A stretch of 22,443 nt of DNA, taken from the IMG/VR virus record IMGVR_UViG_3300009184_004698, positions 1 through 22,443 of that record; one strand, written 5' to 3'. This DNA comes from a virus. Shown here piece after piece: positions 1-21,833 of this stretch; the first letter of the stretch is position 1, and each line of letters opens with the position of its first letter. The notes below the pieces were generated by a model. It ran no database searches. It was not told the DNA's origin and saw only the letters and a program-made list of their open reading frames with translations. The translations under genes and the position numbers were made by a program.

Positions 1-1037
1 AATATTGCGACCGAGAATATATTAAAAAAGATATCGGTAGCCAGACGTTCACTAAACACCATCTTAGTTTAATTAAGAACTTTTTCGTTCAGTCTTATAA
101 AGATTCAGAATGCAAAATTGATAGGATTGCTTTACATGGTGGTGAACCATTCCTATTCGTTAAACGAATGGATCAAATCCTCGAAGAACTAAAAGAGGAT
201 TATCTAGATGGTAAAGGATTGTATGTATCAATCACTACCAACGCATCCCTGTTCCATAAAGAACAGTGGTTCTTAGAAAAGTGGCGTAAATACTTACGTT
301 TCACTATCTCTTATGACTTCATCTATCAAAAAGAAAATCGTGAAGAGTTTGATATCTACCAAGCTATCGATCTTTGTGGTTACTATAACATCCCTATTCA
401 TTGGCAATTTGTTATGCCTATTTTGGATCGTAAGGTGTTTAGTTTAGATTGTATTAAAGATATTCTTGATAAAATATCTCGTTGCAAAGTTCGTTCAATC
501 AATCTTATCCCACTTCGTCATCATCGTGGTGAACGCAAATTTAAAACATTCGTTGAAGATTTAGACTTGTCTCAATTCGCTGATTCGTTTATGCGTTTTA
601 TTAATGTTCTTTACAACTACAATATAATGGTTTTTATTGACGGAAACTATGGTATTACGGATAAAGATTATTTCGGTGACCATTATAAAATTATTCTATC
701 ACCAGATGGGTTTATGTATTCTGAATATGACTTCTGTGAATATAAAAGACCAGAGTATCAAATAGGAAGATGGACAGATGGTTTATCTCCAAACTTTGTT
801 CCAACATTAATTCGTAACGGTATGCCAGAAGACATTGTGCAAGAGAAATGCGTAACCTGTCCGTCTGCTAAACTATGTGGATTGAGATATCTACATAAGA
901 TGTTTGATACACAACCTGGAACTAAATGTGTTCAGTTCTATCAAATTATTGATGCTATGGTAAGATACACCACCAAGATTCACCAGAAAAAATCTTTCTT
1001 CCATTGGATAGCAGATGCGAAACCAAACAGTAACTAA
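1..1037 (+). CDS. Radical SAM enzyme with reduced SPASM-like C-terminus (5' end cut by window edge)
   Basis: The frame is open from the first complete codon (position 3), so the Met at 168 is internal and the true start lies left of the window. The first visible residues are Tyr-Cys (Cys at 6-8), which fit the last cysteine of the CxxxCxxC cluster motif of radical SAM enzymes. A GGEP motif at 138-149, typical of the SAM-binding strand, supports this. The C-terminal part has an SPGDG-like turn (ILSPDG), a Cys at 735, a CxxC-x5-C group (849, 858, 876) and a last Cys at 927. This resembles a SPASM auxiliary-cluster domain, but the usual CX3C cysteine after the CX5C is missing and the first half is atypical. 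At least 344 residues are visible. The next gene overlaps its end by 23 nt in another frame. The family suggests peptide or protein modification; the substrate is unknown. Confidence 0.85.
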   Translation, partial: YCDREYIKKDIGSQTFTKHHLSLIKNFFVQSYKDSECKIDRIALHGGEPFLFVKRMDQILEELKEDYLDGKGLYVSITTNASLFHKEQWFLEKWRKYLRFTISYDFIYQKENREEFDIYQAIDLCGYYNIPIHWQFVMPILDRKVFSLDCIKDILDKISRCKVRSINLIPLRHHRGERKFKTFVEDLDLSQFADSFMRFINVLYNYNIMVFIDGNYGITDKDYFGDHYKIILSPDGFMYSEYDFCEYKRPEYQIGRWTDGLSPNFVPTLIRNGMPEDIVQEKCVTCPSAKLCGLRYLHKMFDTQPGTKCVQFYQIIDAMVRYTTKIHQKKSFFHWIADAKPNSN

Positions 1038-2112
1038 AGACACAAACTTCAGACAATACTTTATAGAGGAAGACAATCTCAAAAGTTTGCAGAACGAAGT
1101 CATATTTTCAATAGTTAGAAGATATAATTGTTTTGCTGGGTGTCATATATGTTATGTTGACAAATACTTTGAGAAGAATAAAACTGAGTTTCAAAGATTT
1201 GTGCCAGAAGCAATTACGCAAAAAATGTGCGATCTTTGGGTAGATGTATTTTCAAATTATACTTTCGCCAGTACCATTGACGATTTATATTGGATGAAGC
1301 ATCAGCAACCCCATCTGTTTGAATGGTATAAAGACCATGCTGGGATCTTCCATTTTGGCTCTATGACTGATAATAACTTTATTCGTGCTTGGGATATTCT
1401 AACCAATGAGATTGCAAGACCTAAAGGTATCTACGAATTTACATTCTCAGATAAATGGCTCGCAAAGATTAAAATAGAAGATATTATTGATAAGTTAAAT
1501 AAGATTCACAAAATGATGCCGATATCATTAATTAAACTTATTCAAACAGATACGGAATCTTTGCAATGGGAACCAGTTAAAAAAATACTTGACTGGGTAG
1601 TGGCTAATGAGGTAAAATACATTGTCCATGCCGATGCGAAAACATTCAGTACTATATTACTTAATACTGATTCGCAACAAACATCTTTTGCAACTCATAA
1701 TGGTGATATACTTACTATATGTGGTGAGGCAGATTACTTGCAGTATGATTCGTTCTTCCATACGTTGATTGATGCGATTGACCCTAATTGCACTCCGTAT
1801 GATACATTGTCAGATGGTTGGAATATAGATCGTCATGTATACTCTCATATGGCTAATAAAATAGATGTTTACAAACGACATGCAGAAAAACTTAAATTAG
1901 TGAATTCAGGAGCAACAAAGAACTACAAAGATTATTTCAATTGGGTTGCAGATAACTTAATTGTAAATAAAGATTATAACTTTATACCTACACTATCATT
2001 AAAACCATATCATAACTTTCATGAAGGATTAGAAAAGAATGGTTGGCAGTCTACTCAATATGGTTTAGTTAAACCATCAGACAAGATTGTACCACTCTTT
2101 CAATTTAAATAA
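1015..2112 (+). CDS. Divergent radical SAM protein without visible SPASM domain
   Basis: This 365-aa protein carries one clear signature: CFAGCHIC at residues 39-46, an exact CxxxCxxC radical SAM cluster motif preceded by a short strand (IFSIVRRYN). I cannot find a canonical GGE motif or a cysteine-rich C-terminal SPASM or twitch domain, so it is either a divergent catalytic enzyme or a partner subunit. The start at 1015 is the only ATG upstream of the cysteine motif; the next Met lies beyond it. The gene begins 23 nt inside the preceding rSAM gene and ends in a 1-nt TAATG overlap with the following one, so all three are probably translated as a coupled unit. The substrate is not recognisable. 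The radical SAM call rests mainly on the motif and on the neighbourhood of three other rSAM genes. Confidence 0.72.
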   Translation: MRNQTVTKDTNFRQYFIEEDNLKSLQNEVIFSIVRRYNCFAGCHICYVDKYFEKNKTEFQRFVPEAITQKMCDLWVDVFSNYTFASTIDDLYWMKHQQPHLFEWYKDHAGIFHFGSMTDNNFIRAWDILTNEIARPKGIYEFTFSDKWLAKIKIEDIIDKLNKIHKMMPISLIKLIQTDTESLQWEPVKKILDWVVANEVKYIVHADAKTFSTILLNTDSQQTSFATHNGDILTICGEADYLQYDSFFHTLIDAIDPNCTPYDTLSDGWNIDRHVYSHMANKIDVYKRHAEKLKLVNSGATKNYKDYFNWVADNLIVNKDYNFIPTLSLKPYHNFHEGLEKNGWQSTQYGLVKPSDKIVPLFQFK

Positions 2113-3464
2113 TGTCACACACTTATAACATTAGTTTAACATCAGTTAAAAACTCGCTGAAAAAACAGCCAGATCGTCTTCCCATGATTGAACGAACTGC
2201 AGATTCTATCACCAAATTTCGTTCTGGTAATATTGAGTTCTACTATGATAATTACACTAATGGCATGTATGATAAAGATATGAATCCTTTATCTGAACCA
2301 GTAGAACCCACTGATGCTTATAATGATGTTATAAAAGAAACACGTTCACGTGTAAAATCTGATAAACCTTTTTGGATTCGTATTCTTCTTGGACACGCTT
2401 GTAACTATTCTTGCGATTATTGTATGCAGAAAGACATCGGTAATCCAGATGAACGAGAAAAGATTACAACAACTGAACAATTTATTCAACAGTTATCTAA
2501 ACTTGATATGAGTCGTTTAGAAAAGATTGACCTGTGGGGTGGTGAGACTTTCCTTTATTGGAAAACGATGGTTGATATTATGCTTGCGTATGATAGAGAA
2601 GGATTAACTTGGTTTATCCCTACCAATGGTACACCACTTCAAATGAAACATATTGAGTTTTTTAGTAAGTTAAAAGGTACAGTTACTATTGGTGTTTCCC
2701 ATGATGGTCCAGGACATGAGAGACTACGTGGTGAAGAATTCTTACATAAAAAAATAGAAATATTAAAAGCTGCACAGAAAATTGACAACATCAAGTTTAG
2801 TTTTAACCCAGTTCTTTCTCGCACCAACTATAATCTATTTGATATTAATAACTTCTTCTATAACTACGCTTCCGAAAATGGTCTTGATATGACTCGCTTG
2901 GCAATTTCTTGGAATCTTGGGCATAACTATGATTATGACAATGAGTCAGGATCTGCCAATCACGTTATTTCTGGTGATGCATTACAAGACTTTAAAGGTA
3001 TTGTGGAACGATATCTTGATGCGTGTCACGCACAGATGAATGGTGTTGACAATAAAATATTAAACAGTAATTTATGGCAAGGTGGTATGGGTGTTTTACC
3101 TTACGCTAAAACTCTGCGCCAGCAAATTTTACCAACATCAATAACTTCATGTGGTGTCGATGACGAGGGTGTTCTTTCTATTGATATGAAAGGTAATATT
3201 CGCACGTGTCCACATACAGATGAATCATTTATTGGTGGACATATTGATAAACTCGATGAGGTTAAACTAAAACGAGTTGACTTAGAACGATATGAAAAAC
3301 ACTGTAAGTCTTGTGAAGTATTCCGTTTGTGTAAATCAAACTGCCCGATTGAAGTTCCAGATAATGTATTTTTTACTAACTGTGCAGTTGAAAAGGTTTA
3401 CCACCGAGCAGTTCAATTAAAAGCATTTAGTCTAATATTGGGGGACGAAGTCGTCAAGGAATAA
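2112..3464 (+). CDS. Radical SAM/SPASM domain enzyme
   Basis: A complete 450-aa radical SAM protein. CNYSCDYC at residues 97-104 is the CxxxCxxC motif for the SAM-binding 4Fe-4S cluster, and WGGET at 142-146 is the GGE motif. The C-terminus fits the full SPASM pattern: Cys347 and Cys366 in CX13GX4C spacing, then Cys398, 401, 407 and 411 (CX2CX5CX3C), then Cys424. That normally holds two auxiliary 4Fe-4S clusters, as in anSME-type and RiPP-maturing enzymes that modify peptides or proteins. About 90 residues precede the catalytic domain and could be a substrate-recognition or partner-binding region; I do not recognise a family for them. The ATG overlaps the previous stop by one base (TAATG), indicating coupled translation. 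The last 33 bases are also coding on the other strand. No precursor peptide gene is visible next to it. Confidence 0.92.
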   Translation: MSHTYNISLTSVKNSLKKQPDRLPMIERTADSITKFRSGNIEFYYDNYTNGMYDKDMNPLSEPVEPTDAYNDVIKETRSRVKSDKPFWIRILLGHACNYSCDYCMQKDIGNPDEREKITTTEQFIQQLSKLDMSRLEKIDLWGGETFLYWKTMVDIMLAYDREGLTWFIPTNGTPLQMKHIEFFSKLKGTVTIGVSHDGPGHERLRGEEFLHKKIEILKAAQKIDNIKFSFNPVLSRTNYNLFDINNFFYNYASENGLDMTRLAISWNLGHNYDYDNESGSANHVISGDALQDFKGIVERYLDACHAQMNGVDNKILNSNLWQGGMGVLPYAKTLRQQILPTSITSCGVDDEGVLSIDMKGNIRTCPHTDESFIGGHIDKLDEVKLKRVDLERYEKHCKSCEVFRLCKSNCPIEVPDNVFFTNCAVEKVYHRAVQLKAFSLILGDEVVKE

Positions 3465-5291
3465 ATTATCACCCCAGTTTTTACACATGGATATACACTC
3501 ACTAATTTTTTGTTTTTGAGGTATATCCATTTTCATTGGTGTTTTAATATTATCAGATAGATGATCACAAATATCATCTAAAATTGCATCATCATATTTC
3601 TTTAACCATATCTTCAATGCGTTAAAGAATCCTTCTGGATTTAATAAAATCAAAAACTTTAAAGTGCTATAATGACTTATATAAGGTAAGTTTGGTGCAA
3701 TGTCTGCGTATAAAATATCACTGGGTGTTTCGTTATTAATGTTATCAATAAATTCATTATAGATTTTAGATATAGTGGGTATTGATAATAAAAATTCTTT
3801 AAACAATGTTCTGTTAAATTCTGTAATGTCCACACCATTAGATCTTAGTCTATTTTGAATAGGTGTTATAACTCTATTTCTATTCAGGAATGAGAAATAG
3901 TATTTAAACATTTCCATTTCAACCCACTGCTCAACACCATAAGAATATGTTGATACTACAATGTCATATGGTTGTAACCAGTTCTGATCAAATAATAAAT
4001 GTCTAGTTCCAGTTAATTGTTTGTCTACTGTATATTCGTTTCTTGGGATAACATTTCTACCCTGCAAATCTAAATTTACTAATGCTTTCTTAGTTTTAAT
4101 TTTCATGCTAGACATATATTCTGGCGATGCAGCTGGAGCAGAAGGTAGCATCATCCACTCATACATAGTAGGTTCAAGATATTTTGATTTAGTTATATGT
4201 TCAATTAGATCATAAAATGTATCAAGAGTTTCACCAGGAAGACCAATTATTAATTCTGCTCTTAAATTTTTATTGTACTTGTCTCTTAAATCGGTATAAA
4301 ATTCTATCTGGTCATCAAACGGCATATCAATCCTACTGATATTATCTAAAATAGTTTGATTTGTGTGCTGAACAGAAACTTTTATATCATCTAAAATTCC
4401 GTTTGATAAAAATATATCATATATCTCTCTTAGAAATTTTTTGCTAGTTTTAGTTGGACCATAAACATTAATGTATTTAACACATTTATTGTTATTGAGT
4501 TCTACTATCTTTTTTGCAATTTTAATATCATCTTTAACTATCCCAAAATTAGCATTAATTATATCAATATGAGTTGGGTTTAGATACTCAAATATAACTT
4601 CAAGTTCTTTAATAGTTTCTTCAATAGGTTTAAATACTACCTTAGTAGAAGTGCCACCACCCCATTCACAATATGAACATGCATAAGGACACCCACGTGA
4701 TGTGTCTAAAATAATTGTTGTTTGTTCTTTTGGGAATTTTTTAAGATATTCAATGTTATCCAAATATGGCATTGGATAATTAAATTCTCTTTTATTATAA
4801 TCTGAGGTAGCTTTATTCCAAAATGCTCTACGCAAAGAAGGATAAACACAAAATGGAATATCTTTGATTGGAACACCATCAAGGTAATCTGTAATAAAAA
4901 CTTCTCCGTAGCCAGAGTATTCACACAAAGCGTCAATGAACCAATTTTCTACAAACCATCCTTTAAAATGTTCGTAGTAAAGGGCTGGACCACCAGCAAT
5001 AATTTTAATGTTTGGGAGTTTTATTTTGACTTGCTCAGCAATATACATTGTGAGTTTATCGTTCCACATGTAACAAGAAATACCAACAACGTCTGGTTCT
5101 TGAATGACAATTCTGTCAATTAGTTCTTGTGGGGATTCTGCGACATCTGAATACTCTGGATCGAGCCACTGCCATGCAGATGGGACTTTAGAGTTACGTT
5201 GGAAATAAGATTTGAGAGTTAGCCATAAGTATGGAATCTCATTTGCAGAAGAATTAGGTGTTGTATAATTTACTAATAAAAACTTTTTCAT
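3432..5291 (-). CDS. B12-binding-domain radical SAM protein (class B-like)
   Basis: A 619-aa protein. Residues about 1-140 look like a Rossmann-type cobalamin-binding domain: an N-terminal LLVNYTTPN strand, PDVVGISCYMWN (67-77), IIAGGP (97-102) and a GYGE turn near 127-130. No DxHxxG motif is seen, as is common in B12 radical SAM enzymes. The catalytic domain follows: CPYACSYC at 201-208 (CxxxCxxC), a VSVQHTN...ISR segment (306-320) and LIIGLPGET (347-355). Residues about 400-619 are an alpha-rich extension of unknown role. Family members mostly do radical methylation or other C-C chemistry at unreactive carbons, including in RiPP pathways. The gene follows the tail-fibre gene in the same direction after a 32-nt gap containing a hairpin. 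Its end overlaps the plus-strand rSAM gene tail to tail. No UPF0004 or TRAM domain is seen, so MiaB or RimO is unlikely. The substrate is unknown. Confidence 0.88.
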   Translation of the reverse strand: MKKFLLVNYTTPNSSANEIPYLWLTLKSYFQRNSKVPSAWQWLDPEYSDVAESPQELIDRIVIQEPDVVGISCYMWNDKLTMYIAEQVKIKLPNIKIIAGGPALYYEHFKGWFVENWFIDALCEYSGYGEVFITDYLDGVPIKDIPFCVYPSLRRAFWNKATSDYNKREFNYPMPYLDNIEYLKKFPKEQTTIILDTSRGCPYACSYCEWGGGTSTKVVFKPIEETIKELEVIFEYLNPTHIDIINANFGIVKDDIKIAKKIVELNNNKCVKYINVYGPTKTSKKFLREIYDIFLSNGILDDIKVSVQHTNQTILDNISRIDMPFDDQIEFYTDLRDKYNKNLRAELIIGLPGETLDTFYDLIEHITKSKYLEPTMYEWMMLPSAPAASPEYMSSMKIKTKKALVNLDLQGRNVIPRNEYTVDKQLTGTRHLLFDQNWLQPYDIVVSTYSYGVEQWVEMEMFKYYFSFLNRNRVITPIQNRLRSNGVDITEFNRTLFKEFLLSIPTISKIYNEFIDNINNETPSDILYADIAPNLPYISHYSTLKFLILLNPEGFFNALKIWLKKYDDAILDDICDHLSDNIKTPMKMDIPQKQKISECISMCKNWGDNLFLDDFVPQY

Positions 5292-5300: not shown

Positions 5301-5325
5301 TAGGCTCCATCAGGAGCCTATTTTT
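5301..5325 (+). terminator. 8-bp perfect hairpin with plus-strand T-run between fibre and B12-rSAM genes
   Basis: TAGGCTCC (5301-5308) and GGAGCCTA (5313-5320) pair perfectly around a 4-nt loop, and five T residues follow at 5321-5325. In the plus direction this has the form of an intrinsic terminator, although no plus-strand gene lies directly upstream; it could stop read-through from the rSAM operon after crossing the B12-rSAM gene antisense. In minus-strand RNA the same hairpin lies between the fibre stop and the B12-rSAM start but lacks a clean U-run. There, the 3' arm contains GGAG, the only Shine-Dalgarno-like sequence near that start (13 nt away), so the stem could also mask ribosome binding. 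Confidence 0.55.
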
Positions 5326-6589
5326 AGAGGATTACGCACTCAATTAGTTTTACATTGGGGTCTAAATTAGTTTCAAGAGAGATAGCAAAACTATTTGGAT
5401 GATCACCAGCGATACCACGACCATCTTGATTTGCCACCAATGGCTGTCCCTTTTTAATTGGACCAGCAACTTTAACTGGAACACGTCCACGAAGTGCGAG
5501 TGCTTGTCCAGGTGCTTCATCATTCATTAAGAATGCTGGGTTTTCAGAAACAACACCAAGAACTCTTTGAGCATATTCAAACGAAGAAGTGCCTTCTGCA
5601 GAATCATCAAGAGAAACTACAATAACAGTTCCTGTTTCATATTGTTTATCTGTTGTATATTTTTCTGCCAAGTCAGCGTATCGAGCAGATGTAGCTGTAC
5701 CAAAAATAGTACCAAAACGATTATCTGTTTGTCCAATATCTCCAGTACCATTAGTTCCAGATTTTGTAATAGATGGTGTATTAAAAGAAGATGTTGCAGT
5801 AATAGTAGCTAACTGCATTGATCCAGCAGTTGGTATACTAATAACTGGATTACCAGAAACACCATCTGGGTTTGTAATAGTTAATCCATTACCACCAACA
5901 GTAATAGTTCTTTCTGTAACAGAACCAGTACCCAAACGAACATAGAAACCTGTAGACGATGCTGCTGCAGCAATAGCAGTTAATTCGTTGGAGAATGGTT
6001 GAATATCAGAACCAATAACTAAACCTAAGTTAGTTCTTGCTTGGGTTGTATTTGATGCTCCAGTACCACCATCTGCAATAGCAATATCAGTAATACCAGT
6101 AATTGAACCACCAGTGATAGATACATTATTTGCTGCTTGGGTTGAAATAGAACCTAATCCAAGATTTGTTCGTGCTGATGAATCAGTGGTAGCACCAGTG
6201 CCACCATGTTCAATAGTAATAACACCATTCACGTTAGTGGCATTACCAGTAACAGTACCAGTTAAATTACCAACGACGTTACCAGTTACGTTACCAGTTA
6301 CGTTACCAGTGAATGTAGTGGCATTTAAACCACCACTTTCATTGCGTAAAGCAATACTGTTTGCAGTTGCTGTCACTAGCAGTTCTTTAGATAAAATTGT
6401 TGTGGCATTTAAACCACTTCCGTCACCCTCTAAATCATATTCTGATAATAAAGTTAAGACATTTTCTGCAATAAAATCTGCAGAGTCTAATTTTGTTCCA
6501 ACTTCAGTATTTAAATTTGTGAAATTGGCATCCGCTTCTGCGATTGATAGTGGGCTACCTTTAACCGATCTTAGTACGATTACCGCCAT
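5324..6589 (-). CDS. Tail-fibre-like virion protein
   Basis: This 421-aa protein has the typical layout of a phage fibre. The N-terminus (VLRSVKGSPLSIAEADANFTNLN, residues about 5-27 with minor spacing) is the attachment-type start common in T4-like fibres. A low-complexity shaft follows with GNVTG/GNLTG repeats and two GGTGA(T/S) ... ARTNLGL repeats, both classic tail-fibre motifs. Near residue 300 a segment reading RYADLAEKY starts a compact C-terminal domain containing RVLGVVSENPAFLM and LRGRVPVKVAGPIKKG. That domain recurs at the ends of phage fibres and somewhat resembles the self-cleaving chaperone domains of some appendages. The start overlaps the upstream 76-aa gene in TAATG, with AAGGA just before it. 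It probably forms a trimeric fibre or accessory whisker; host receptor binding is inferred. It is the last structural gene before the rSAM region. Confidence 0.8.
   Translation of the reverse strand: MAVIVLRSVKGSPLSIAEADANFTNLNTEVGTKLDSADFIAENVLTLLSEYDLEGDGSGLNATTILSKELLVTATANSIALRNESGGLNATTFTGNVTGNVTGNVVGNLTGTVTGNATNVNGVITIEHGGTGATTDSSARTNLGLGSISTQAANNVSITGGSITGITDIAIADGGTGASNTTQARTNLGLVIGSDIQPFSNELTAIAAAASSTGFYVRLGTGSVTERTITVGGNGLTITNPDGVSGNPVISIPTAGSMQLATITATSSFNTPSITKSGTNGTGDIGQTDNRFGTIFGTATSARYADLAEKYTTDKQYETGTVIVVSLDDSAEGTSSFEYAQRVLGVVSENPAFLMNDEAPGQALALRGRVPVKVAGPIKKGQPLVANQDGRGIAGDHPNSFAISLETNLDPNVKLIECVIL
6276..6311. repeat. Three tandem 12-bp units in the fibre shaft
   Basis: ACGTTACCAGTT occurs at 6276-6287 and 6288-6299, and once more with one change (ending TG) at 6300-6311. 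Degenerate units extend the array left to about 6237. On the coding strand each unit encodes a GNVT tetrapeptide of the fibre shaft. Near-identity at the DNA level suggests recent slippage or duplication within the shaft. Confidence 0.85.
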
Positions 6590-6819
6590 TATTTTTCCTT
6601 ATTATTGAGAGCCATAAGCAGATGCTTAATCTCTGACATATCTGTTTTTAATTTATGAATATCGTCAGCATTTTGTTCTAACTGAGTCTTAAGTTTTTTA
6701 TTTGCATTTTTCTTTTGCAAATAGTTTTCGTATTCTGTCTTATTAGTATTTATCACTGCGCCACTAGAGAGGTCTCTCACGAGACCCTCTGCGTTTTCAA
6801 TTTTAACTATGTTATCCAT
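6589..6819 (-). CDS. Small coiled-coil phage protein
   Basis: A 76-aa acidic/basic-rich protein. The N-terminal part (ENAEGLVRDLSSGAVINTNK) resembles small proteins common in T4-like marine phages that contain a (L)VRD..SGAV(I/L)NT core. Residues from about 30 onward are a predicted coiled coil rich in Lys, Glu, Asn and Leu (KKNANKKLKTQLEQNADDIH then KLKTDMSEIKHLLMAL). An ATG three codons upstream (start 6828) is possible, but I prefer 6819: it forms TAATG with the stop of the giant upstream gene, the same junction used elsewhere here. No Shine-Dalgarno is visible, consistent with coupling. Its stop in turn overlaps the fibre start. A virion, adaptor or fibre-chaperone role is inferred from position only. 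Confidence 0.72.
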   Translation of the reverse strand: MDNIVKIENAEGLVRDLSSGAVINTNKTEYENYLQKKNANKKLKTQLEQNADDIHKLKTDMSEIKHLLMALNNKEK

Positions 6820-9800
6820 TAAGCACAAGCGATAATACGAAGATCTTTAACACGAGGAACTTCAGAAGAGTTTTTAGATTTTAAAACAATCTTAACTCTT
6901 ACAGCGTCAAATGCTTCTAATTCATCAACTGAATAAGTGACATCAACAAATCTACCATTAGAATTACTATAACGTGCAATTGGAGCATCTGCAGTCATTA
7001 GGTTGTATGTTTCGCTATCAAACGAAGCATTATCACCAATAACAGCATGTTTGTAGTAAACTTCGATATCAGCTTCAGCAGGTAGGTTAACTGCCATGCG
7101 AATTTTCATGAAAGTCGATGGCTGTGCTAAGTTGATACGTTTAGTTACATATTTACTATAAGTTGAAGATTCTGATGGTGCAGTTTCATCAACAAATCGT
7201 TCACGTTGTTTTAGAGTGATTGCTGTTCCAGCTACGACAGAAGTGAATGTTTTATTCAAAGTTACTGAAGAACCATCAGATGCAATTTCTGTAATTAAAA
7301 ATGTACCATTATTACCAGAAGTTCCAGAACCACTAATAGTTAAATACTTACCAACAGTCAAAGTAGCTAAAGCTAATCTAGCAGCACTATTAGCAGTTGT
7401 TATAGTATTTCCAGAACTAAAGGCAATAGTAGTATTTGCAGAAAGAATAGTATTATCATCTAATCCAGCTACGTTTACATTTGTTTCTGTTGGATAATTA
7501 ACTTTATTATTAATAACAATCAGACTAGTACGATGTGTGTCTAGAATTGGAGACAACGCATCATTTTGACTGCTAATTAAAACATTCATTGATAGAGATT
7601 TTTCACCACTAAGCGCATTTGATTCATTTAATTCTGAAGCAACCATTTTGGGTGCAACAAAACTATTATTCTCATTAGGCAAAATTGCAACATGATCCAT
7701 AGTAGTGATATTTTCATAAGCATTCTGTGTAATAGAATCTATAGACATACCACTCGTTGCTTTAAATCCAAATTCCACTGGAGTTTCAGTAAATGTCTGC
7801 ATCGTAATCGATGGGTGAATAGAATCAAATTGTAAGTTTCTAGTGGCAAGTATACCTTGCCCACCAGCATAACCAGAAGCAGTAGCATTAGTTGTAATAG
7901 GATCAGCAACACCAACACCAATAACATAGCTATCTAAATCAACATCAGAGATAATATGAGTTGTGAAGATCTGATTAGCTGGAATACCATTAATGGTATC
8001 GGCATATCTGAATCCCATCGTTGATACAGTTAATGCAGCGTTTGCAGCTAGAGTCAACGATGTGTTACTAGCAATTGATGCAATTTTTCCAAGATAAACT
8101 GACTTCTGTTCACGTCCTCTTGCAAACAAATAATCATCAACAGCAAGTTCACTGGTAAATGCAGTACCAATACCAGTAACAGTTGTACTACTAGAACCAG
8201 TGCTAATAAATCCTGTACCAAAAGTTCCACCGACTAAATCAACTTTAGAATTAACTGGCATGCCATGGTCTTTTTGCCATACACGAACTTGAGATTGTCC
8301 AGTTCTTGTTTCAAAAGGATTAACTTCTAGCATTTGTATTGGTAGAACATCATTGACATATTCTATGTTACCAACAACACCAGTATCAAACTTAGCACGA
8401 TAAATGGTAAATTTCAAATCTTGAGTTTGATCTGCTGTCCAAGTGGAAGCATTTTGAGATTTAAATAATGAACCAAGATATGGTTGCTCAGAAATAGTAC
8501 GAGCAGTTCCAGGCATTAAATCACCAACTTGTGAAATCCAAACATTATAATTGTTTGAGTCAGAGGCAAGAACAATTGCATATTCTGTACCCTCTTGAAC
8601 ATAAACTGGAGAAGGAAATTCAAATGTAGTTGGAGTGTCGTATGATTTTACTGTTGTATCATTTAATGTTACAGTATTTTCTGATAGATTAACTTGTTCT
8701 GGTTTTAATGTTACACGTGAGAACGGTAGGACACGCTTACCTGGATATCCGTTAACAACTTCACGGATCTCAAGCATAACTGGAACCGCTGGATCTTTAG
8801 TAGCAAAGAATACATCAACTTTAGATAAGAAACATCCACCTTTAGTGTCAATCAAGAATGTCTGTGCAAGAGGATCCCACCAAACGTGATTTAATGCGGA
8901 ACGTGTTGCAGTTTGGATAATAACTTGATTCTCGGTTAATTGTTCTTCAACTAACTCAGCATTACGAACGGCATTGACAGTTTGCTGACGTGTTTCTAAT
9001 ACACCCTCAGCACGATAGTTCGCACGTGCACGAGAACTAAATTCACCTCTAGGAGTTGTAGTATCAACTAATTTTAATTCACGTGTTCCACAACGGAAAC
9101 GAACAGCTTCTGTATTTGGAATATTGAATAGTAGTTGAACATCACCATTATAATTAGTTACTAAATTATCACCAAGAACTTTAACTGTTGGAGTAGTAAC
9201 AACTGTTCCTGTCGCAGCAGAAGCATAAGCTAATGGATTAGAACCAGTGATAGTATTACCAGAAGAGATAGTTCCAATAATATTATTAACAAATAATGAG
9301 TACTCACCAGTATCTGGATTATATTCTTTACCAACTACGACTGCAGTAGCTACAGTAGTTGCGCCATTTTTAATAGTTAAAAACTCACCTTTATTTAAAC
9401 ACATTTGTGAATCGCCATCGATACGACGTGCAGCTTCAGCTGCAAGACCACCTACGTTAGTCACATCATCAAATTTGTTGTGGGTTGCTTGTCTAGACGC
9501 TATTAAAGCAGCACCTGTACCAGTGCCATACGGAGTATAAACAATTCGAGTGGCAGGAGTACAGAATGCTGAGATATCAATATCATCAAAGAATGGGTAA
9601 AAACGTGTTAGTGGTTTTAACTTTTGAACTTGAATTAATACATTGCGAGAGCGCATGTAAGGAATAACAGCAGTTGATAATACACGATCTGCCACTATTT
9701 GTCTATCAATTTTGGTCACAAGACTAGTTTTAACACCAGTGCGTGCTTGCCCAATCGGTGTTGCGTCTGTATAGATAGTACCCCATGTAACCCAGTTACG

Positions 9801-12800
9801 TCCAGATGCATAGTATGCAGTTGCAGTAGTTGTAGTTTCACCAACCCACTGAGTTTGCCAACCATTCCAAACAGTACCTAAAGCATTCGCCTTTTCAGCA
9901 AGCACTTTCATTGTGGTAAAATTACCTTCAACATCAAATACTAAATCTGGACGACGATCTACTTCAAACCAGTCATCAGAAGATGGATTAATTTTAACAT
10001 CACCGATAAAAGTGAACACGGCAAATGGATTGATGTTTTCTAAGCGAGAAGCAAATTGTTGAGTAACAACAGGAAGATGATCAACAACAGGTAATGTGAT
10101 AACATCACCATACATTTTATAATTTCTATTGTTGCGTGCGCCTGGAGAAATAGCTTTTTCTAAAAGGTTTACGTTATTCATTGCAAAGAATGGACGTAAC
10201 TCAGCATTGTTCATATCAATAGAACATAGGTAGTCAGGATTTGTTGCGTCACCAGTATTATGTCCAGTGAAACCATCAACAATAAAGCCATTCTTAAATC
10301 TTGTATCTCCGTTTGCATCAACAATGTCTAATGATTCAGTCTGTTGCTCTAATAAAGATAAAGAAGTATAATATTCTAAGTTATCAATACGTTTTTCTAG
10401 TTTACCGATATCACGCATTGTATATCGTTTATTATCAATTTTTTCAACGATTACATTATCTGAACTCGTACCAAATGTATATGGCTGAAGTGTTAAACTA
10501 TAAAGAACCATACCCATAGAAGGATCTGGAGGTGAACCTGGATTTAATGATGATACACCATCAATCGCAAAAAACTCTCCACTAAAGTCAATAGCAATTT
10601 TAGTTTTTCTTGCTAGGTAATAAGTGAAATCAGCAATAACATCAATACCACGTTTTGGAATTCTTGAATAAGATGGATTGGTTCCAGTAGTAAAACTTGT
10701 ACCAGCATCATTAAGTCTTGGACGGAAATCAATTGTATCTCGTAAAGGGCTTCCACGATATGTAGGAATGCTATTATACATATCCGCTGGATATGAGTTT
10801 ACTGTAAAATAATCACCCGCATCATGTTTGAGCCAATCAAATGTAACAGCGATTGGTGCTTCAGGTGGAGCATATGAATTCTTTAATACTAAACGAGAAA
10901 TATCGTAGTGTGTCAATCTCTGACCATCATCAAAATCATATCTGTCTGTAATATCAATATCATATGTAGAACCATAAGATGAAAAAGTTCCTGATTTCAT
11001 CTTAACTGAAACTAAACGATATGCATCAGCTTTACCTAATAGTAATTCTGTTTTCTGAGCAGTGGCTGCAGTTGTAAATTCAACAGTTTCAGAGTATTGT
11101 GGAAGTTTAGTTTTTTCAGTTAGTGTAATACCTGTTTTATTAATAGCTGCAATAACACTAATAGATCTACCAGAATATGTAGATCCCAAAGTAATAACAC
11201 ATGTTGATGTAGATGGTGCGATATTTCCAGCAGTTACATTGATGATTAATCCAGTAGTATTATCTACTACAATATAATTATCAGTTTCAGCTGCAGAGGC
11301 AAATGTTCCAGATGCAGTTGAAATTGTTAGTGTTGGTGTTGATGATACTGTAGCATTATTACTAAATTTTTCATAAACAGTGTATGAAGTATCATTTGCC
11401 AATAATGAATTACGAACATCTTTAATTGCAAAATAAGGAAGAGGGAATATTAATTTTGTGTTTTCTGGTTCATATACAGTAGTAGAAACTCTAGCATATG
11501 ATACATCACTAATAGCAGATCCTGGACCAGCTGTTAGTGTTAATCCACCATTAGTTTCAACAGAAGCGACACGATATGAACTACCATTTGCATAAATGTA
11601 GTCACCAGAAATAAAATCATCAAGGAAATTTGTACCTTTACCAGTAACTGCAGTACCAGAAATACTTACAGTATTAATTAAAGGAATTGGAATAACTTTT
11701 ACATCTGCACTAAAAGATAGAGCAGCAGAACCACCATTATAGAAGAATGATTTGGCTTTGCGAACAAAGTCAGTATTACCAACCATTTTAATATCAAACA
11801 ATGATAGTTTATAAACTGATGTTTGAGTGCCAATATCACCATTATCCCATTCTAAGATACGTGCACGTGCAGTACCAATTAGGGTTGCTCCACTTGGAAC
11901 AACACCCCGTGTTCCATTTAATCTATCATAGATATCAATGTCAAGGTAGTTTTGAACTGGTGGTAAACCACTTACGTTAGTTACTAAAACATAGTTACCA
12001 ACTGTAGCTGGAATAACAGCATTAACAACTTGAACATCATCTCTGGCTTTATTTACAGCAACATATTCAGTAGAAGTTTTTTCAATCTCATAACCCTGCA
12101 CATATGCTTTACCTGCATCTAAACCAATAGCAAGTTTAGCATCATTAATTTTTTGTTCTTCTTCAGTTTCACCAACATTTGGAGAATAGATGCCACGATT
12201 ATAATTTGGAATTTCTGTGTATTCCCATTCTACACCACCATTTGATTCACCATCATATTCAGAACCAGTTGTATGAATTGGTGTGATTGATGATGATTGT
12301 TCAGTATTTTTGGCAACATAAGTGTTACCTGCATTACTTACAATGTCTCCTTGTAGATAAACTCTTCCAGTAGCCCACTGCCCACGATTATTATTACGAT
12401 ATTCACGAACATCAATATCAAAATTCTTAACAGTATAATTACCAGATTCATCATAAGTACGACGAGCAAATTCTTGTTCTAAAACAGAATACTCAGTATT
12501 TCTTGCTGCTTTTCTAACATTACCTTTATTAGTTCTAATCAACTCAATAAAATCAGTATCTGAATCTTTATCAGTTACTGAAGAATACGTGTTAATATAA
12601 GCAAGAGTCAAAGTACCATTTGTTGCATCACCAGAAGTATGAGTCGGTGCAGATGACCCAGAAACACCAGCAACAATAACACGATAATAAAGAGTGTTGG
12701 ATCTAATTAAATCTCCAACAGCATACTCACGAGTTTGTTGCCAAGTTTGGGCATCGGTATAATCTGGAATTGCTGTAAGAATTGCATCAATAGTGTAACG

Positions 12801-13502
12801 ATGGGCTCCAGGAGCAGCATAGTTAAACGAATTTTGAGCATTATCAAATAAAGTAATATCTTCTTCAGCTGTAACGATTTCTTCATTACAAACAAGACCT
12901 ATACGGTAAGTAGGAAGATTAGTATATTTGTCTAGAACAATGGTTTGTGGTGAGACAAGAACAAAATGTCCTTTAAGAAAATAAACACCCTGCTCAATAA
13001 TAGCAAGAGATGATTTACCTGTAGCATTAGTCGCTGCAGCTTGTGTTGAATATACACCATCTATTGTTTGAATAACATCAGATTCGGCAAATTTTTTGGT
13101 TGTTGTATTAGAGTCAGAATTTTTATAACGAACATATAGAGTTGATGGGTCACCATTTTCTGCAACAGTATAGTGTAAAACTTCAGCTTGAAGTCCAGTG
13201 CTATTTTTAATAGTTTTACCAGCAAAATTAGAAATGTTAGTATCAGTTAAAACACTGTTATAACTTTCTGTTAATTTAATATAACTAACTTTTGTATCAA
13301 TACTCGAAGCACCAGGAATAACCATGGCACCTTCTTTAAATACATGAGTACCAAATTTTGTAATTTGATTCTGTAAAACAGTTTGTAACTGTGTTAATTC
13401 CCTAGCTTGAACAGCATAACTTGGGCGGAATAAAATACGATAAAACTTCTTAGTCTCGTCAAAGTCGTCATAGTAAGGTTCGGTATTGAAGTTAATTGTC
13501 AT
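6819..13502 (-). CDS. Giant DUF4815-type virion structural protein
   Basis: At 2227 aa this is the largest gene. The N-terminus (NFNTEPYYDDFDETKKFYRI, then LFRPSYAVQARELTQLQTVL) matches the start of the DUF4815-type structural proteins of cyanophages and other marine T4-like phages, which follow gp8 and are thought to be part of the baseplate periphery or fibre network. Inside are adhesin-like beta modules: two with Y..GD(L/I)(I/V)...Y and P.HT(S/T)G signatures (about residues 256-302 and 370-434), and two with V(T)GxGTxF...D(Y) signatures (about 611-662 and 1760-1825). The C-terminus (about 1950-2227) is a distinct region containing LSMNVLISSQNDAL and ending RVKDLRIIACA. A candidate late promoter precedes the gene, and AAGAGAAG lies about 10 nt before the ATG. 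Its exact virion position is unknown; it may replace functions of T4 gp10-gp12, none of which is recognisable here. Confidence 0.82.
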   Translation of the reverse strand: MTINFNTEPYYDDFDETKKFYRILFRPSYAVQARELTQLQTVLQNQITKFGTHVFKEGAMVIPGASSIDTKVSYIKLTESYNSVLTDTNISNFAGKTIKNSTGLQAEVLHYTVAENGDPSTLYVRYKNSDSNTTTKKFAESDVIQTIDGVYSTQAAATNATGKSSLAIIEQGVYFLKGHFVLVSPQTIVLDKYTNLPTYRIGLVCNEEIVTAEEDITLFDNAQNSFNYAAPGAHRYTIDAILTAIPDYTDAQTWQQTREYAVGDLIRSNTLYYRVIVAGVSGSSAPTHTSGDATNGTLTLAYINTYSSVTDKDSDTDFIELIRTNKGNVRKAARNTEYSVLEQEFARRTYDESGNYTVKNFDIDVREYRNNNRGQWATGRVYLQGDIVSNAGNTYVAKNTEQSSSITPIHTTGSEYDGESNGGVEWEYTEIPNYNRGIYSPNVGETEEEQKINDAKLAIGLDAGKAYVQGYEIEKTSTEYVAVNKARDDVQVVNAVIPATVGNYVLVTNVSGLPPVQNYLDIDIYDRLNGTRGVVPSGATLIGTARARILEWDNGDIGTQTSVYKLSLFDIKMVGNTDFVRKAKSFFYNGGSAALSFSADVKVIPIPLINTVSISGTAVTGKGTNFLDDFISGDYIYANGSSYRVASVETNGGLTLTAGPGSAISDVSYARVSTTVYEPENTKLIFPLPYFAIKDVRNSLLANDTSYTVYEKFSNNATVSSTPTLTISTASGTFASAAETDNYIVVDNTTGLIINVTAGNIAPSTSTCVITLGSTYSGRSISVIAAINKTGITLTEKTKLPQYSETVEFTTAATAQKTELLLGKADAYRLVSVKMKSGTFSSYGSTYDIDITDRYDFDDGQRLTHYDISRLVLKNSYAPPEAPIAVTFDWLKHDAGDYFTVNSYPADMYNSIPTYRGSPLRDTIDFRPRLNDAGTSFTTGTNPSYSRIPKRGIDVIADFTYYLARKTKIAIDFSGEFFAIDGVSSLNPGSPPDPSMGMVLYSLTLQPYTFGTSSDNVIVEKIDNKRYTMRDIGKLEKRIDNLEYYTSLSLLEQQTESLDIVDANGDTRFKNGFIVDGFTGHNTGDATNPDYLCSIDMNNAELRPFFAMNNVNLLEKAISPGARNNRNYKMYGDVITLPVVDHLPVVTQQFASRLENINPFAVFTFIGDVKINPSSDDWFEVDRRPDLVFDVEGNFTTMKVLAEKANALGTVWNGWQTQWVGETTTTATAYYASGRNWVTWGTIYTDATPIGQARTGVKTSLVTKIDRQIVADRVLSTAVIPYMRSRNVLIQVQKLKPLTRFYPFFDDIDISAFCTPATRIVYTPYGTGTGAALIASRQATHNKFDDVTNVGGLAAEAARRIDGDSQMCLNKGEFLTIKNGATTVATAVVVGKEYNPDTGEYSLFVNNIIGTISSGNTITGSNPLAYASAATGTVVTTPTVKVLGDNLVTNYNGDVQLLFNIPNTEAVRFRCGTRELKLVDTTTPRGEFSSRARANYRAEGVLETRQQTVNAVRNAELVEEQLTENQVIIQTATRSALNHVWWDPLAQTFLIDTKGGCFLSKVDVFFATKDPAVPVMLEIREVVNGYPGKRVLPFSRVTLKPEQVNLSENTVTLNDTTVKSYDTPTTFEFPSPVYVQEGTEYAIVLASDSNNYNVWISQVGDLMPGTARTISEQPYLGSLFKSQNASTWTADQTQDLKFTIYRAKFDTGVVGNIEYVNDVLPIQMLEVNPFETRTGQSQVRVWQKDHGMPVNSKVDLVGGTFGTGFISTGSSSTTVTGIGTAFTSELAVDDYLFARGREQKSVYLGKIASIASNTSLTLAANAALTVSTMGFRYADTINGIPANQIFTTHIISDVDLDSYVIGVGVADPITTNATASGYAGGQGILATRNLQFDSIHPSITMQTFTETPVEFGFKATSGMSIDSITQNAYENITTMDHVAILPNENNSFVAPKMVASELNESNALSGEKSLSMNVLISSQNDALSPILDTHRTSLIVINNKVNYPTETNVNVAGLDDNTILSANTTIAFSSGNTITTANSAARLALATLTVGKYLTISGSGTSGNNGTFLITEIASDGSSVTLNKTFTSVVAGTAITLKQRERFVDETAPSESSTYSKYVTKRINLAQPSTFMKIRMAVNLPAEADIEVYYKHAVIGDNASFDSETYNLMTADAPIARYSNSNGRFVDVTYSVDELEAFDAVRVKIVLKSKNSSEVPRVKDLRIIACA

Positions 13503-13536
13503 TCTTTAATCTTCTCTTAATAGTTGGTTCTTATTC

Positions 13537-13544
13537 TATTTATG
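13537..13544 (-). promoter_or_regulatory. Candidate T4-type late promoter (CATAAATA)
   Basis: On the minus strand, CATAAATA lies directly after the gp8-like stop codon and differs from the T4 late consensus TATAAATA only in its first base. Transcription would begin near 13531, leaving a leader of roughly 30 nt before the giant structural gene. It sits in one of the few real gaps of the operon (42 nt). In AT-rich DNA such octamers arise by chance, so position is the main support. Confidence 0.45.
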
Positions 13545-16505
13545 TTAGAATCTAATAACTGTACGTAAAGTAACAGTCTCATCAGCAGAAGGAGTAAACC
13601 CTGCTTTGTTATCAATAAACATTAATTGTCCAGAGTATTTATCAATCGTTGGAGCACCTACTGAGGAAATCGAAAATGTATGGGCTCCACTTACAAAACT
13701 ATCATTAATCTGAGGTGTATCGTTATCAAGCGATTGTAATAGTGCACCTGAGGTAGATACAGAGACTATACGATAATGTCGTAAAAAGGTTTCTCCATTA
13801 ACAACTCGTTCAACTGTTACATCAGTATCTTTCGGGAAATTTGCGGTATTAATAGTTCCCTCTACGTTAAAACATGCAGAGCCAATAACACCTTGGAATC
13901 TTTGGTCAGTCCCATATATGTTCGGGTTTTTAATAATACCAAGTTGACGATAGTCATTATTTACAGCAAATCCCTGATTCAAGTCAGTTGATACGTTTGA
14001 GTAAAACATTAATGTTCTAGCAAAAAATTCATCTGGGGCATTTTTACCGTGTCCGCCATTTGGGCACATAATTGCTCTTGCGGTAGCTGCATGTCCATTG
14101 CCACTAATAACAACATCTGCAAAGGTATATCCTTCGCCTGGATCAGTTATAGTAATTTTACTAATTCTACCATTGGCACTATTAATTGTTGCGATTGCTT
14201 GTGCGCCAGTGCCATCTCCATTAATTTGAACAGTGGCAACACCATAACCATATCCACCAGAAACCACTTTAATTGCATTGATAGTTCCATCAGTTGCTAA
14301 AATTTCATTATTAGCTTGTAAAGATTGGATTGTACCTATATTAAGATCAGGTGCTAATGCAGCATCATCTCCGTCACCAGAAACTGTAATAGTTGCAGTT
14401 GAATATCCAACACCTGCATTTTCAACGATAACACCAACTATTTGCCCACCAGAAATAACTGGAAGTAATTTAGCCTCAGATTTAGAAGTTTTAAATGATG
14501 CTTGTGCATTTATGCCAGTTGCATCTGTTATAGTAACAGATGGTACAGAAGAATAACCAGCACCAAATCTACGAACAACTTCACCTGTAGCTGGATATCC
14601 AGAATATGTTAAAGTAGCTGGTGCACCAAGATATAATAATGCAGCAGTTCCATTTGTTACTGTTCCAGTAGTATGTGAAGGAATAGTTGATGCATGAGTT
14701 GTACCAGCAGTAGTAACTTTATATAATCTATTAGAAACATATACAGTGCTATTTAAAGTCACAGCTGTTGAATTAGCAAACGCTGGTGAATTAACTACAG
14801 CACCAGTAGTATGAACAGGTGCAACAGACCCGAGAATTCCTGCGCCAGTCACAGTGTATAATCTATTTGAAGAATAATACTGTTCTGTAACTAAAACTGC
14901 AGTTAAAGCAGACCATTCAGTTCCGAAGGAAACAGTCGGATCGCTAGTATAGTTATCTCCTTGATTATGTATAGTCACAAACTTAATCGAACTACCATTC
15001 ATCTTACATATACCAATTGCACCTGATCCACCACCGCCAGTAAAATTAACTGTGGGAGGAGAATTGTATCCATTACCAGAGTTGGTTAAATTGATCTCTC
15101 GAACTGAACCAATTAAAGTTATTGCGCTAATAATTTTTCCAGTAGCAGTTCCTGTGCCTGAAGAACTTCCAGTGGTGGCAGCAGTGAAAGTGCTACCAAC
15201 GCTATAAGTAACACCCGATGTTCCAGCAATAGTATTCCATTGAGTATTTGTTGTAGTACCAAGTGATGCAATGGTATAAGTATAACCCACAATAAATGAT
15301 CCAGCTGTATAAGCAGTTGATGCACCAATTGTTACATTTGTTCGTGCACGTGTTCCAATATACTTTAAAGCTGCTGTATTGTTTTGAACAGTACCCAATC
15401 TATGAGTTGGTTCATTTACAGATAAAGTTCCTGGAGTAACAACTTCATAGTAATCTGATGTACTATTACGAATTTTTTGTCCTAAGAAAACAGTCGCTCC
15501 TCCAATAAATGAAGAAGAGTCAGCGATTGGCTCACTAATTGTGACTACTGGAGAAGAAGAATAATTTTCTCCAGTAGTTACCATATCAATTGAAGTTAAG
15601 AATACTTGATCTTCTTGGCGATATCCATCCCCAGTAACTGTCAAAGTTGCAGTTGTATAACCAGAACCTTTATTATTAATAACGATACTATCCATTGCAC
15701 CATTAGAATAGAACTGATTAGTCAATGCTGAAATCACAGGCATTTGTTGATCTGATAGAAATTTATTACGGAGATTAATTGGAACATTATACATGTATTT
15801 CCAAACATATCCGTCTACAGTAGACATTGGAAAAGTAGAAGTGCCCAATGGTTTAACTGTTGAAGGTGAATTATTATTATTATCAAGACATTTATAGACG
15901 TTAAAGTCTTCTGTCATAACATAAAATACTGCATCTTCTAATTTTGTTGCACCAGAGTATGGTCTATTAATAACAGCTTGTAATATTGCACCAGATCCTG
16001 CACCACCAGTAACAGTTACTGTTGGTTGAGATGTATAACCAGTACCTCTTGATGTACCCGCATATCCAATATCTTCAATTGATATAATTTGACCTTCAGC
16101 TACTACTGGGTAAAATTTAGCACCAGTGCCACCACCTCCAGTAATTGTAATAGTTGGAAGAGTTGTATAACCAGAACCACCATTAATTACATTTAAACCA
16201 ATAATTTCATTATGATATTCGTCATCATACATATCATATACATTACCTGAAGTCCAATTAACTCTGGGAATAACAAATGATACATCTGATGGACCAATGG
16301 CTTTCATCGTAATAATTTCATCACGAGTTTCACGTTCATATGCATATGAGTCAGTCGCAAATGGTGGATTTAAATCATCACTCCATTTTAGAGTTTTTCC
16401 GAGAAAGTAGTAATAGTTTGAAGACTTAGTTGCTACGTCTCGATAAACACCATCTGCCAATGACTTGTGCAGAATTGTTTTAATTAGAGAAGATGATGTC
16501 GCCAT
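13545..16505 (-). CDS. 8: Expanded baseplate wedge protein, gp8-like
   Basis: A 986-aa protein whose two ends match T4 gp8, itself only 334 aa. Near the N-terminus are a YYFLGKTLKWSDD segment, PPFATDS and VIPRVNW (gp8: FGRSEPWSS, PPYPTDS, VIPRRDW), then DGYVWKYMYNVP near residue 230 (gp8: DGYVWEYLFEIP). The C-terminus has DYRQLGIIKNP and ends SGQLMFIDN...TVTLRTVIRF (gp8: FRQISIITNP, EMIYMENR...INILFTF). Between them lie about 600 residues of added beta-rich material: some ten G.GY...P.V...G.G.GA units, three P.H..G modules, and one YTIASLGTT...TFTA module (about 405-458). gp8 forms part of the baseplate wedge and binds gp7 and gp10 in T4. AAGG sits 7 nt before the ATG. The gp8 identity is by remembered motifs and synteny, not by an alignment run. 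Confidence 0.85.
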   Translation of the reverse strand: MATSSSLIKTILHKSLADGVYRDVATKSSNYYYFLGKTLKWSDDLNPPFATDSYAYERETRDEIITMKAIGPSDVSFVIPRVNWTSGNVYDMYDDEYHNEIIGLNVINGGSGYTTLPTITITGGGGTGAKFYPVVAEGQIISIEDIGYAGTSRGTGYTSQPTVTVTGGAGSGAILQAVINRPYSGATKLEDAVFYVMTEDFNVYKCLDNNNNSPSTVKPLGTSTFPMSTVDGYVWKYMYNVPINLRNKFLSDQQMPVISALTNQFYSNGAMDSIVINNKGSGYTTATLTVTGDGYRQEDQVFLTSIDMVTTGENYSSSPVVTISEPIADSSSFIGGATVFLGQKIRNSTSDYYEVVTPGTLSVNEPTHRLGTVQNNTAALKYIGTRARTNVTIGASTAYTAGSFIVGYTYTIASLGTTTNTQWNTIAGTSGVTYSVGSTFTAATTGSSSGTGTATGKIISAITLIGSVREINLTNSGNGYNSPPTVNFTGGGGSGAIGICKMNGSSIKFVTIHNQGDNYTSDPTVSFGTEWSALTAVLVTEQYYSSNRLYTVTGAGILGSVAPVHTTGAVVNSPAFANSTAVTLNSTVYVSNRLYKVTTAGTTHASTIPSHTTGTVTNGTAALLYLGAPATLTYSGYPATGEVVRRFGAGYSSVPSVTITDATGINAQASFKTSKSEAKLLPVISGGQIVGVIVENAGVGYSTATITVSGDGDDAALAPDLNIGTIQSLQANNEILATDGTINAIKVVSGGYGYGVATVQINGDGTGAQAIATINSANGRISKITITDPGEGYTFADVVISGNGHAATARAIMCPNGGHGKNAPDEFFARTLMFYSNVSTDLNQGFAVNNDYRQLGIIKNPNIYGTDQRFQGVIGSACFNVEGTINTANFPKDTDVTVERVVNGETFLRHYRIVSVSTSGALLQSLDNDTPQINDSFVSGAHTFSISSVGAPTIDKYSGQLMFIDNKAGFTPSADETVTLRTVIRF
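14085..16190 (-). repeat. About ten degenerate G.GY...P.V...G.G.GA protein repeats in gp8-like gene
   Basis: The translated insert contains short beta units with a GxGYxxxPxVxxxGxGxGA pattern at about residues 105, 152, 275, 308, 472, 510, 643, 693, 747 and 787. Clear examples are GSGYTTLPTITITGGGGTGA, GTGYTSQPTVTVTGGAGSGA and NGYNSPPTVNFTGGGGSGA. Other modules interrupt the array. Such units are frequent in marine phage virion proteins; a beta-solenoid or beta-sandwich fold is inferred. Confidence 0.75.
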
Positions 16506-16532
16506 TTACGAACCTTAAACTTAAATTTAAAA

Positions 16533-16985: not shown

Positions 16986-17001
16986 AGAGATCTCCTGTTG
17001 G

Positions 17002-19581: not shown

Positions 19582-19586
19582 TATTA

Positions 19587-21818: not shown

Positions 21819-21833
21819 ATACTTATTTAGGTA

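Follow-up and report, generated by a model that had tools for sequence, protein, structure and literature searches.

The virus record IMGVR_UViG_3300009184_004698 of IMG/VR, analysed here over its whole length of 22,443 bases (the window), carries at its left edge a run of radical S-adenosylmethionine (SAM) genes that is the 3' part of a larger gene cassette cut by the contig edge. The complete cassette also encodes S2, a small protein that ends in an array of alternating cysteines. On the sequence evidence it is probable that the cassette is a phage-encoded peptide or protein modification system, with S2 as its substrate and a product at the tip of the tail. The parts of this proposal differ in strength: S2 is very likely acted on by the cassette enzymes, it is reasonably likely to be a tail component, and the chances that the modification consists of thioethers are about even. 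The gene layout is that of a ribosomally synthesised and post-translationally modified peptide (RiPP) cluster, with a small putative precursor, comprising a conserved N-terminal part and a C-terminal core, encoded beside candidate modifying enzymes.

The complete form of the cassette is seen in a 44,668-base contig, IMGVR_UViG_3300010885_012823 (L003), which is near-identical to the window, agreeing with it at 13,456 of 13,461 compared bases, and runs past its edge. Upstream of RS-B and on the same strand this contig encodes S (134 residues), S2 (68 residues), X (319 residues) and RS-A (434 residues), the last with a CNLSCTYC motif and a SPASM domain. Because these four genes are supplied by the near-identical contig, the cassette can be written S-S2-X-A-B-C-D plus E, with five radical SAM enzymes, and the order S-S2-X-A-B-C-D is repeated in L013, L017 and L019. 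A preliminary description of the window had listed four adjacent genes with CxxxCxxC motifs, the first partly past the edge, as one full SPASM, one reduced SPASM, one bare radical SAM and one B12-type enzyme. That set is real but incomplete, as RS-A, X, S and S2 lie upstream of the window edge. In RS-B the first 20 residues are beyond the edge; the full-length copy begins MKNVNTVAIYLGDACNFNCEYC, and the CxxxCxxC motif therefore straddles it.

All four open reading frames (ORFs) exist, and the assignment of each to the radical SAM enzymes and to its type agrees with what had been described. The Pfam Radical_SAM cut-off is exceeded by RS-D (E 9.7e-12), by RS-E (1.5e-10) and by RS-B at full length (3.8e-8), the cut form of RS-B in the window falling below it. 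The CxxxCxxC motif is kept in 30 of 31 homologues of RS-A and of RS-C and in all 31 of RS-B and of RS-D, while the RS-E motif is CPYACSYC, with CPYACVFC and CPYRCTYC in relatives. Auxiliary cysteines number seven in RS-A (31/31) and four in RS-B (31/31); in RS-D six are kept in 30-31 of 31 and one more in 24, the window's copy among them, five others having histidine there; RS-C has none across its 31 homologues. The SPASM domain scores above cut-off in RS-A by Pfam SPASM and in RS-D by TIGR04085. RS-E also matches Pfam B12-binding (E 1.2e-8) and, having both B12-binding and radical SAM domains, is a predicted methyltransferase.

RS-C is divergent, with no radical SAM match in Pfam, NCBIfam or PHROGs, no match of note to the RS-B and RS-D profiles in hhalign, and phrog_36229 (function unknown) as its only family match of note. 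Structure prediction, which the preliminary description had proposed as a check, gave an AlphaFold model from 14 sequences with a predicted local distance difference test (pLDDT) score of 82 and a predicted template modelling (pTM) score of 0.82. In VIA-align, rows 1-25 for this model are radical SAM enzymes, the best being MoaA (Z 10.6, root-mean-square deviation 4.7, 250 residues aligned); Foldseek alone placed no radical SAM structure in its 50 best rows. The predicted fold of RS-C is thus the partial TIM barrel of radical SAM enzymes.

The nearest relatives of the other enzymes in the PDB profile searches include peptide and protein maturases. For RS-A the nearest solved sequence is CteB (5wgg, E 1.4e-21), and its best NCBIfam model in three of three proteins is the PapB ranthipeptide maturase (E 6e-35, 4e-34 and 3e-36, all sub-cut-off). 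RS-B is nearest to 8vpo, deposited as a radical SAM core domain-containing protein, and to CteB; RS-D to 8vpo and to the anaerobic sulfatase maturases 4k36 and 4k37; and RS-E to TokK (E 2e-35, residues 17-404) and CysS.

The cassette genes are inherited together. A search of the viral collection with an RS-A profile alignment (A4) found 57 loci, of which 51 were at 49% identity or above; the weak matches L118-L123 (23-36%) were excluded from all counts. Grouped at 90% RS-A identity, the 51 loci fall into 28 clusters, and RS-A, RS-B, RS-C, RS-D and S2 are each found in at least one member of every cluster. RS-B is missing from five of the 51 loci, and RS-C and RS-D from eight, because contig ends cut those loci. 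Gene X scores above threshold in 41 of 51; L108 and L111 have, by eye, X-like genes at the same place that are too divergent for the threshold, and in L105 and L106, where no X scored, S2 lies beyond RS-D on the other strand. Across 31 loci the distance matrices of RS-A to RS-D correlate with one another (r 0.65-0.84; 0/2000 permutations each). The survey of gene neighbourhoods suggested earlier therefore finds co-conservation: the homologues occur together rather than only singly, and orthology to housekeeping enzymes did not emerge. No cut-off of a named family was reached. The proposed multi-step radical modification pathway is supported by the joint occurrence of RS-A to RS-D with a precursor-like cysteine-array protein beside them, its chemistry being predicted from sequence. 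The B12-type enzyme RS-E, present in the window, is by contrast an optional member, found in 12 of the 51 loci.

Relatives in genome assemblies are an Alteromonadales metagenome-assembled genome (L124), a Bdellovibrio metagenome-assembled genome (L126) and the isolate Ewingella americana E4 (L125), each with RS-A to RS-D and an S2-type protein, that of Ewingella being missed by the profile and recognised by eye; a fourth match, L127 (21%), was dropped. Among named phage records, tblastn gave no match for queries P0001 and P0002, three for P0003 (Achromobacter phage JWF twice, phage 2-1 once) and two for P0004. The same search with RS-A matched 14 records, phages from human faeces, at no more than 32.4%, and with S2 of L010 it matched none; the latter protein as a query matched four viral loci. 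A plasmid search returned 25 records, all below 60%, with at most 27.3% among the matches listed.

The candidate substrate is under tight constraint. S2 consists of one HxH-x3-D repeat followed by a C-terminal C-x-C array, its C-terminus on the near-identical contig being HTHILYDDYSTNCNCNCACACGRGGL. When a degenerate DNA pattern for T-x-C-x-C-x-C-x-C-x-C-x-R-G was scanned over the whole viral collection, 44 stretches were found, and in 34 of them an S2-type ORF (65-93 residues, apart from one of 57 cut by the stretch edge) ends in the matched sequence. In all 34 an RS-A gene lies 0-3425 bases from that ORF. The other 10 stretches were rejected as S2, eight being one unrelated 50-residue ORF type and two having no such ORF. 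Because the DNA pattern fixes the cysteines, the reverse search was made from RS-A, with an S2 profile that excluded the array. This array-free profile found S2 in 49 of the 51 viral RS-A loci, and in the two misses, L073 and L107, the contig ends on that side. All 34 contigs found by the DNA pattern belong to these 51; of the remaining 17, from which the S2 profile took no sequence, 15 have S2.

In the 51 S2 proteins found by profile (49 viral, together with L124 and L126; 63-93 residues) the array has five cysteines in 41, four in three and three in seven, in 14 distinct forms. Only Q, N, D, A or E stand between the cysteines, and beyond the array every protein ends in the same format: one residue, RG, then two residues. 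The Ewingella S2-type protein has 122 residues and six cysteines. In 26 distinct S2 tails of 36 codons the variation is 0.43 at codon position 3 against 0.19 and 0.12 at the others, and each of five cysteines is encoded by TGT in some tails and by TGC in others; S2 is thus a translated and selected sequence.

S2 has a repeat in common with its neighbour S, and the cassette lies in a tail module. The S proteins have two HxH-x3-D repeats, to whose profile the single S2 repeat aligns by hhalign (95.6%, E 1.1e-8). As the histidines and aspartate of both repeats are invariant in all 15 aligned sequences, the S genes (L015 7041-7445 and 14 others) suggest a family of metal-binding tail proteins. In the window the cassette lies among baseplate wedge, PAAR and tail genes. 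The 253-kb Ewingella contig (L125, L144-L147) carries in parts baseplate, PAAR, connector and DNA polymerase genes, with its cassette near the tail and baseplate genes; on this gene content it is most likely a large phage in the isolate's assembly. The carriers of the cassette appear to be uncultivated tailed phages, T4-like and others. The major capsid protein Gp23 was found in five of ten records searched, including the 160-kb relative G007, and not in the other five.

A simpler, independent arrangement in Achromobacter phages of another type links the same kind of array to a tail fibre. In phages JWF and 2-1 an RS-D-like radical SAM gene lies two genes past a tail-fibre-like gene whose product has the array CNCDCNCNCSC (JWF) or CNCDCNCSC (2-1). 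The last array cysteine of the JWF fibre is residue 308, where a match to the Hint domain (PF05203) starts at profile position 1. Seven distinct records (JWF, 2-1 and L137-L141) have a fibre with a C-x-C array of five or six cysteines running into CFPAGT and, two genes further on, an RS-D-like enzyme, the Hint domain being checked by Pfam in JWF only; in L140 the enzyme is hidden in the ORF listing by an overlapping frame and is reported by tblastn. If the Hint domain cleaves here as such domains usually do, the fibre array would become C-terminal, as it is in S2. A predicted RS-D-like activity is the common denominator of the cassette and the JWF group. The likeness thus consists of an RS-D-like enzyme two genes after a C-x-C protein whose array would be C-terminal if Hint cleaves; the JWF and 2-1 trio differs in having one enzyme only, in carrying the array on a 480-residue fibre followed by the Hint domain, and in a middle gene that is not detectably X (no match between X and the 240-residue JWF gene).

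The division of labour among the enzymes and the place of the product in the virion we infer as follows. S2 would be made alongside tail proteins, with its HxH-D repeat serving as a recognition element and probably also as a structural anchor. RS-D and RS-A would work on the cysteine array, most likely joining cysteine sulphur to a side-chain carbon of the alternating Asn, Asp, Gln or Glu in thioethers like those of ranthipeptides. Such cysteine-to-side-chain thioethers are our first choice because cysteine alternates with these residues and because RS-A is near PapB and CteB. RS-B and RS-C may introduce further changes, as may the DUF3050 protein where it is present, and RS-E, where present, would add a C-methyl group. 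The mature product, formed during assembly, would most likely be the C-terminal tip of a tail protein, stiffened and protected against oxidation.

Two pairs, PapB with its substrate PapA (freyrasin) and CteB with SCIFF, are among the known systems closest to this arrangement. RS-A is nearest to PapB in NCBIfam and to CteB in the PDB and shares their SPASM domain, and a cysteine-rich small substrate is common to both pairs and the cassette. The cassette differs from them in its sub-cut-off scores, in having four to five radical SAM enzymes, in being encoded within the tail module of a tailed phage, and in a candidate substrate whose HxH-D repeat is common to a neighbouring protein. In PapA the spacing is CxxxD, as against C-x-C in S2; acidic or amide partners near the cysteines are a likeness between PapA and the S2 array. 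For the B12-dependent radical SAM methylases TokK and CysS, RS-E aligns to TokK but is an optional member of the phage cassette.

Several observations weigh against the proposed modification system. Among the best 25 NCBIfam matches of each, no equivalog model is reached at its curated cut-off by any of three RS-A proteins, by the cut RS-B, by RS-D or RS-E, or by the JWF enzyme; the named maturase families compared were PapB, SCIFF, nif11, anSME and others, and RS-E did not reach the cut-off of the KedN5 family. The top NCBIfam model for both cut RS-B and RS-D is the prokaryotic viperin, which gives no hint of a peptide substrate, at scores far under its cut-off. Gene X has no sequence relative in the PDB and only Ig-like C-terminal matches (Z up to 7.0) in a fold search, and its fold is unassigned. 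S2 itself has no match above cut-off to known families (one NCBIfam match at E 0.4 with four proteins, none in Pfam with five), and the conserved HxH-D repeat that it carries is more in keeping with a structural protein than with a leader that is cleaved off. Four or five enzymes exceed the obvious need of an array of three to six cysteines. In contrast to classical secreted RiPPs, the one neighbourhood gone through by eye, that of L010, showed neither a recognisable leader peptidase nor an exporter; no systematic search for them was made.

S2 might instead be a RiPP effector rather than part of the virion, released from the infected cell or acting inside it, with rival phages or functions of the host as possible targets. 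Its small size, its C-terminal cysteine core and the several maturase-like enzymes beside it are indeed like those of bacterial RiPP clusters. However, the cassette is in the tail module, the S2 repeat is common to S, the L010 locus by eye offers neither exporter nor protease, and in JWF-type phages the array sits on a tail fibre, so that we consider an effector unlikely. The main chemical rival to thioethers is oxidation of the array cysteines to formylglycine, in the manner of anaerobic sulfatase maturases, which would place aldehydes on the tail tip. The RS-D profile matches 4k37 (E 6e-9) directly after 8vpo and 4k36, and the JWF gene is annotated as an anaerobic sulfatase-maturating enzyme. 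This is nevertheless somewhat less likely still than an effector, as RS-A is closer to PapB and CteB, RS-D and the JWF enzyme rank other maturase models above the sulfatase one, whose cut-off they do not reach, and the alternation with N, D, Q or E fits crosslinks from cysteine to side chains.

Two further explanations concern iron-sulphur metabolism. The array could bind a metal or iron-sulphur cluster and serve as a carrier for radical SAM enzymes that act on something else; C-x-C arrays can bind metals, and IscU and A-type carriers are encoded a few genes on in L010, L076 and L009. These iron-sulphur genes occur in three of 61 loci examined (by Pfam for IscU and one of two A-type carriers; in L009 also by eye), whereas almost every locus has S2. 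With the tight restriction of the spacers in the array and of its distance from the C-terminus, and with the JWF-type array being on a fibre, this makes a carrier very unlikely. Where they occur, the IscU and A-type proteins could charge the clusters of the radical SAM enzymes. Nishimura et al. (2017, PMC5332604) noted a T4-like genome, TARA_ERS488813_N000010, whose 12 radical SAM genes and A-type carrier they read as iron-sulphur-related. It shares with our cassette phages many radical SAM genes and, with some of them, an iron-sulphur carrier and a T4-like character, and differs in that, in the available part of the paper, the genes are described as iron-sulphur-related and no substrate is named. 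On the corresponding reading, independent iron-sulphur auxiliary metabolic genes merely cluster in our loci as well. A fixed gene set with a co-conserved cysteine-array peptide in 28/28 clusters, and the failure of any metabolic family cut-off to be reached, make this the most improbable of the alternatives, and we disfavour it. The preliminary description had held that no phage system of this composition was known; that genome had already been noted, but its genes were not taken for a peptide pathway in the part of PMC5332604 available. Among the matches listed for open-access titles and the starts of abstracts, a search that left subscription papers and preprints uncovered, none described a radical SAM peptide pathway in a phage or an S2-type precursor.

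Features of the window, with three genes of the distant cassette phage L010
Feature	Position	Strand	Remark
RS-B, radical SAM with reduced SPASM	1..1037 (ORF 3-1037)	+	5' cut; frame from base 3
RS-C, divergent radical SAM without auxiliary-cluster cysteines	1015..2112	+	phrog_36229
RS-C CFAGCHIC motif, codons 39-46	1129..1152	+	From sequence; Cys columns in 30/31 homologues
RS-D, radical SAM with SPASM	2112..3464	+	Homologue of the single radical SAM enzyme close to the JWF fibre with the Cys array
RS-D CNYSCDYC motif, codons 97-104	2400..2423	+	
RS-D SPASM cysteines C347 to C424	3150..3383	+	
RS-E, B12-binding and radical SAM protein	3432..5291	-	Optional cassette member
RS-E B12-binding domain, residues 47-106	4974..5153	-	Pfam
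RS-E Radical_SAM domain, residues 197-365	4197..4703	-	Pfam
Neighbouring tail-fibre-like protein	5324..6589	-	Peptidase_G2 similarity, sub-cut-off
Large structural protein, baseplate wedge genes, PAAR spike	6819..22133	-	Tail module holding the cassette
L010 beta-ketoacyl synthase	2017-3243		
L010 small protein, hot-dog-like by eye	4431-4799		
L010 2OG-Fe(II) oxygenase	13986-14579		

At the window's left edge RS-B, RS-C and RS-D overlap on the plus strand, and RS-E is convergent with RS-D, overlapping it by 33 bases. In L017, L019 and L086, too, a look-alike of the adjoining tail-fibre-like protein borders the cassette. One accompanying gene encodes a DUF3050 protein, with homologues in 27 of the 51 viral loci and in L124 and L126, mostly directly after RS-D; that of L010 (11310-12077; Pfam E 5e-81) has weak similarity to haem-oxygenase-like iron enzymes. 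The IscU and A-type carrier genes lie at L010 12882-14908, L009 4045-5100 and L076 15393-16474. In L010 a beta-ketoacyl synthase (Pfam E 3e-32; homologues in L075, L078, L084 and L115), a small protein that is hot-dog-like by eye and has no Pfam match, and a 2-oxoglutarate-dependent (2OG-Fe(II)) oxygenase surround the cassette. L019 has a 2OG-Fe(II) oxygenase gene (13463-14002) after RS-D, at the place that RS-E takes in other loci. Both S copies from close relatives that were scanned match phrog_31780 (function unknown).

Some loci depart from the common arrangement. In L103 RS-A (8971-10614) and RS-D (13165-14520) are each split into two ORFs, and for this reason the cassette there may be decaying or the assembly may be in error. 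L030 (5097-6371, 8645-10408) has a second RS-A-like gene, and L009 (3-1507) two adjacent RS-C-like genes. The Ewingella RS-A has a cysteine-rich N-terminal extension, and the RS-A profile picks out two more radical SAM genes on that contig, one at 92.6 kb and a weaker match at 154.8 kb. A similar theme is seen in two loci outside the counts. In L122 (6838-14365) a 207-residue protein with a long C-x-C-rich tail, HTHSVTCNCECTCTCTCT..., precedes four radical SAM genes, of which one is of the B12 type, and an aldo/keto reductase lies beside them. On a 543-kb virus contig, L118 (3958-11675) has five consecutive CxxxCxxC genes, two of them tested by Pfam, after which come a protein resembling F5/8 type C at a sub-cut-off score and another with an S2-like repeat and a cysteine-rich tail.

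If the proposed function of the cassette is correct, viruses of 28 phage clusters would encode a peptide pathway of several radical SAM enzymes, whose precursor matches no family in Pfam or NCBIfam. Modification of a virion protein by radical SAM enzymes would, to our knowledge, add a new type of maturation to those known in phages. As S2 is a concrete candidate substrate, the chemistry becomes directly testable. The pathway could also explain the richness of some T4-like genomes in radical SAM and iron-sulphur assembly genes. More tentatively, and with the odds slightly against so broad a statement, phages may build a covalently cross-linked tail tip resembling peptide natural products by a dedicated radical pathway, an end that T4-like and JWF-like phages would have reached differently. 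If true, this would take RiPP chemistry out of the realm of secreted natural products and into the architecture of the virion.

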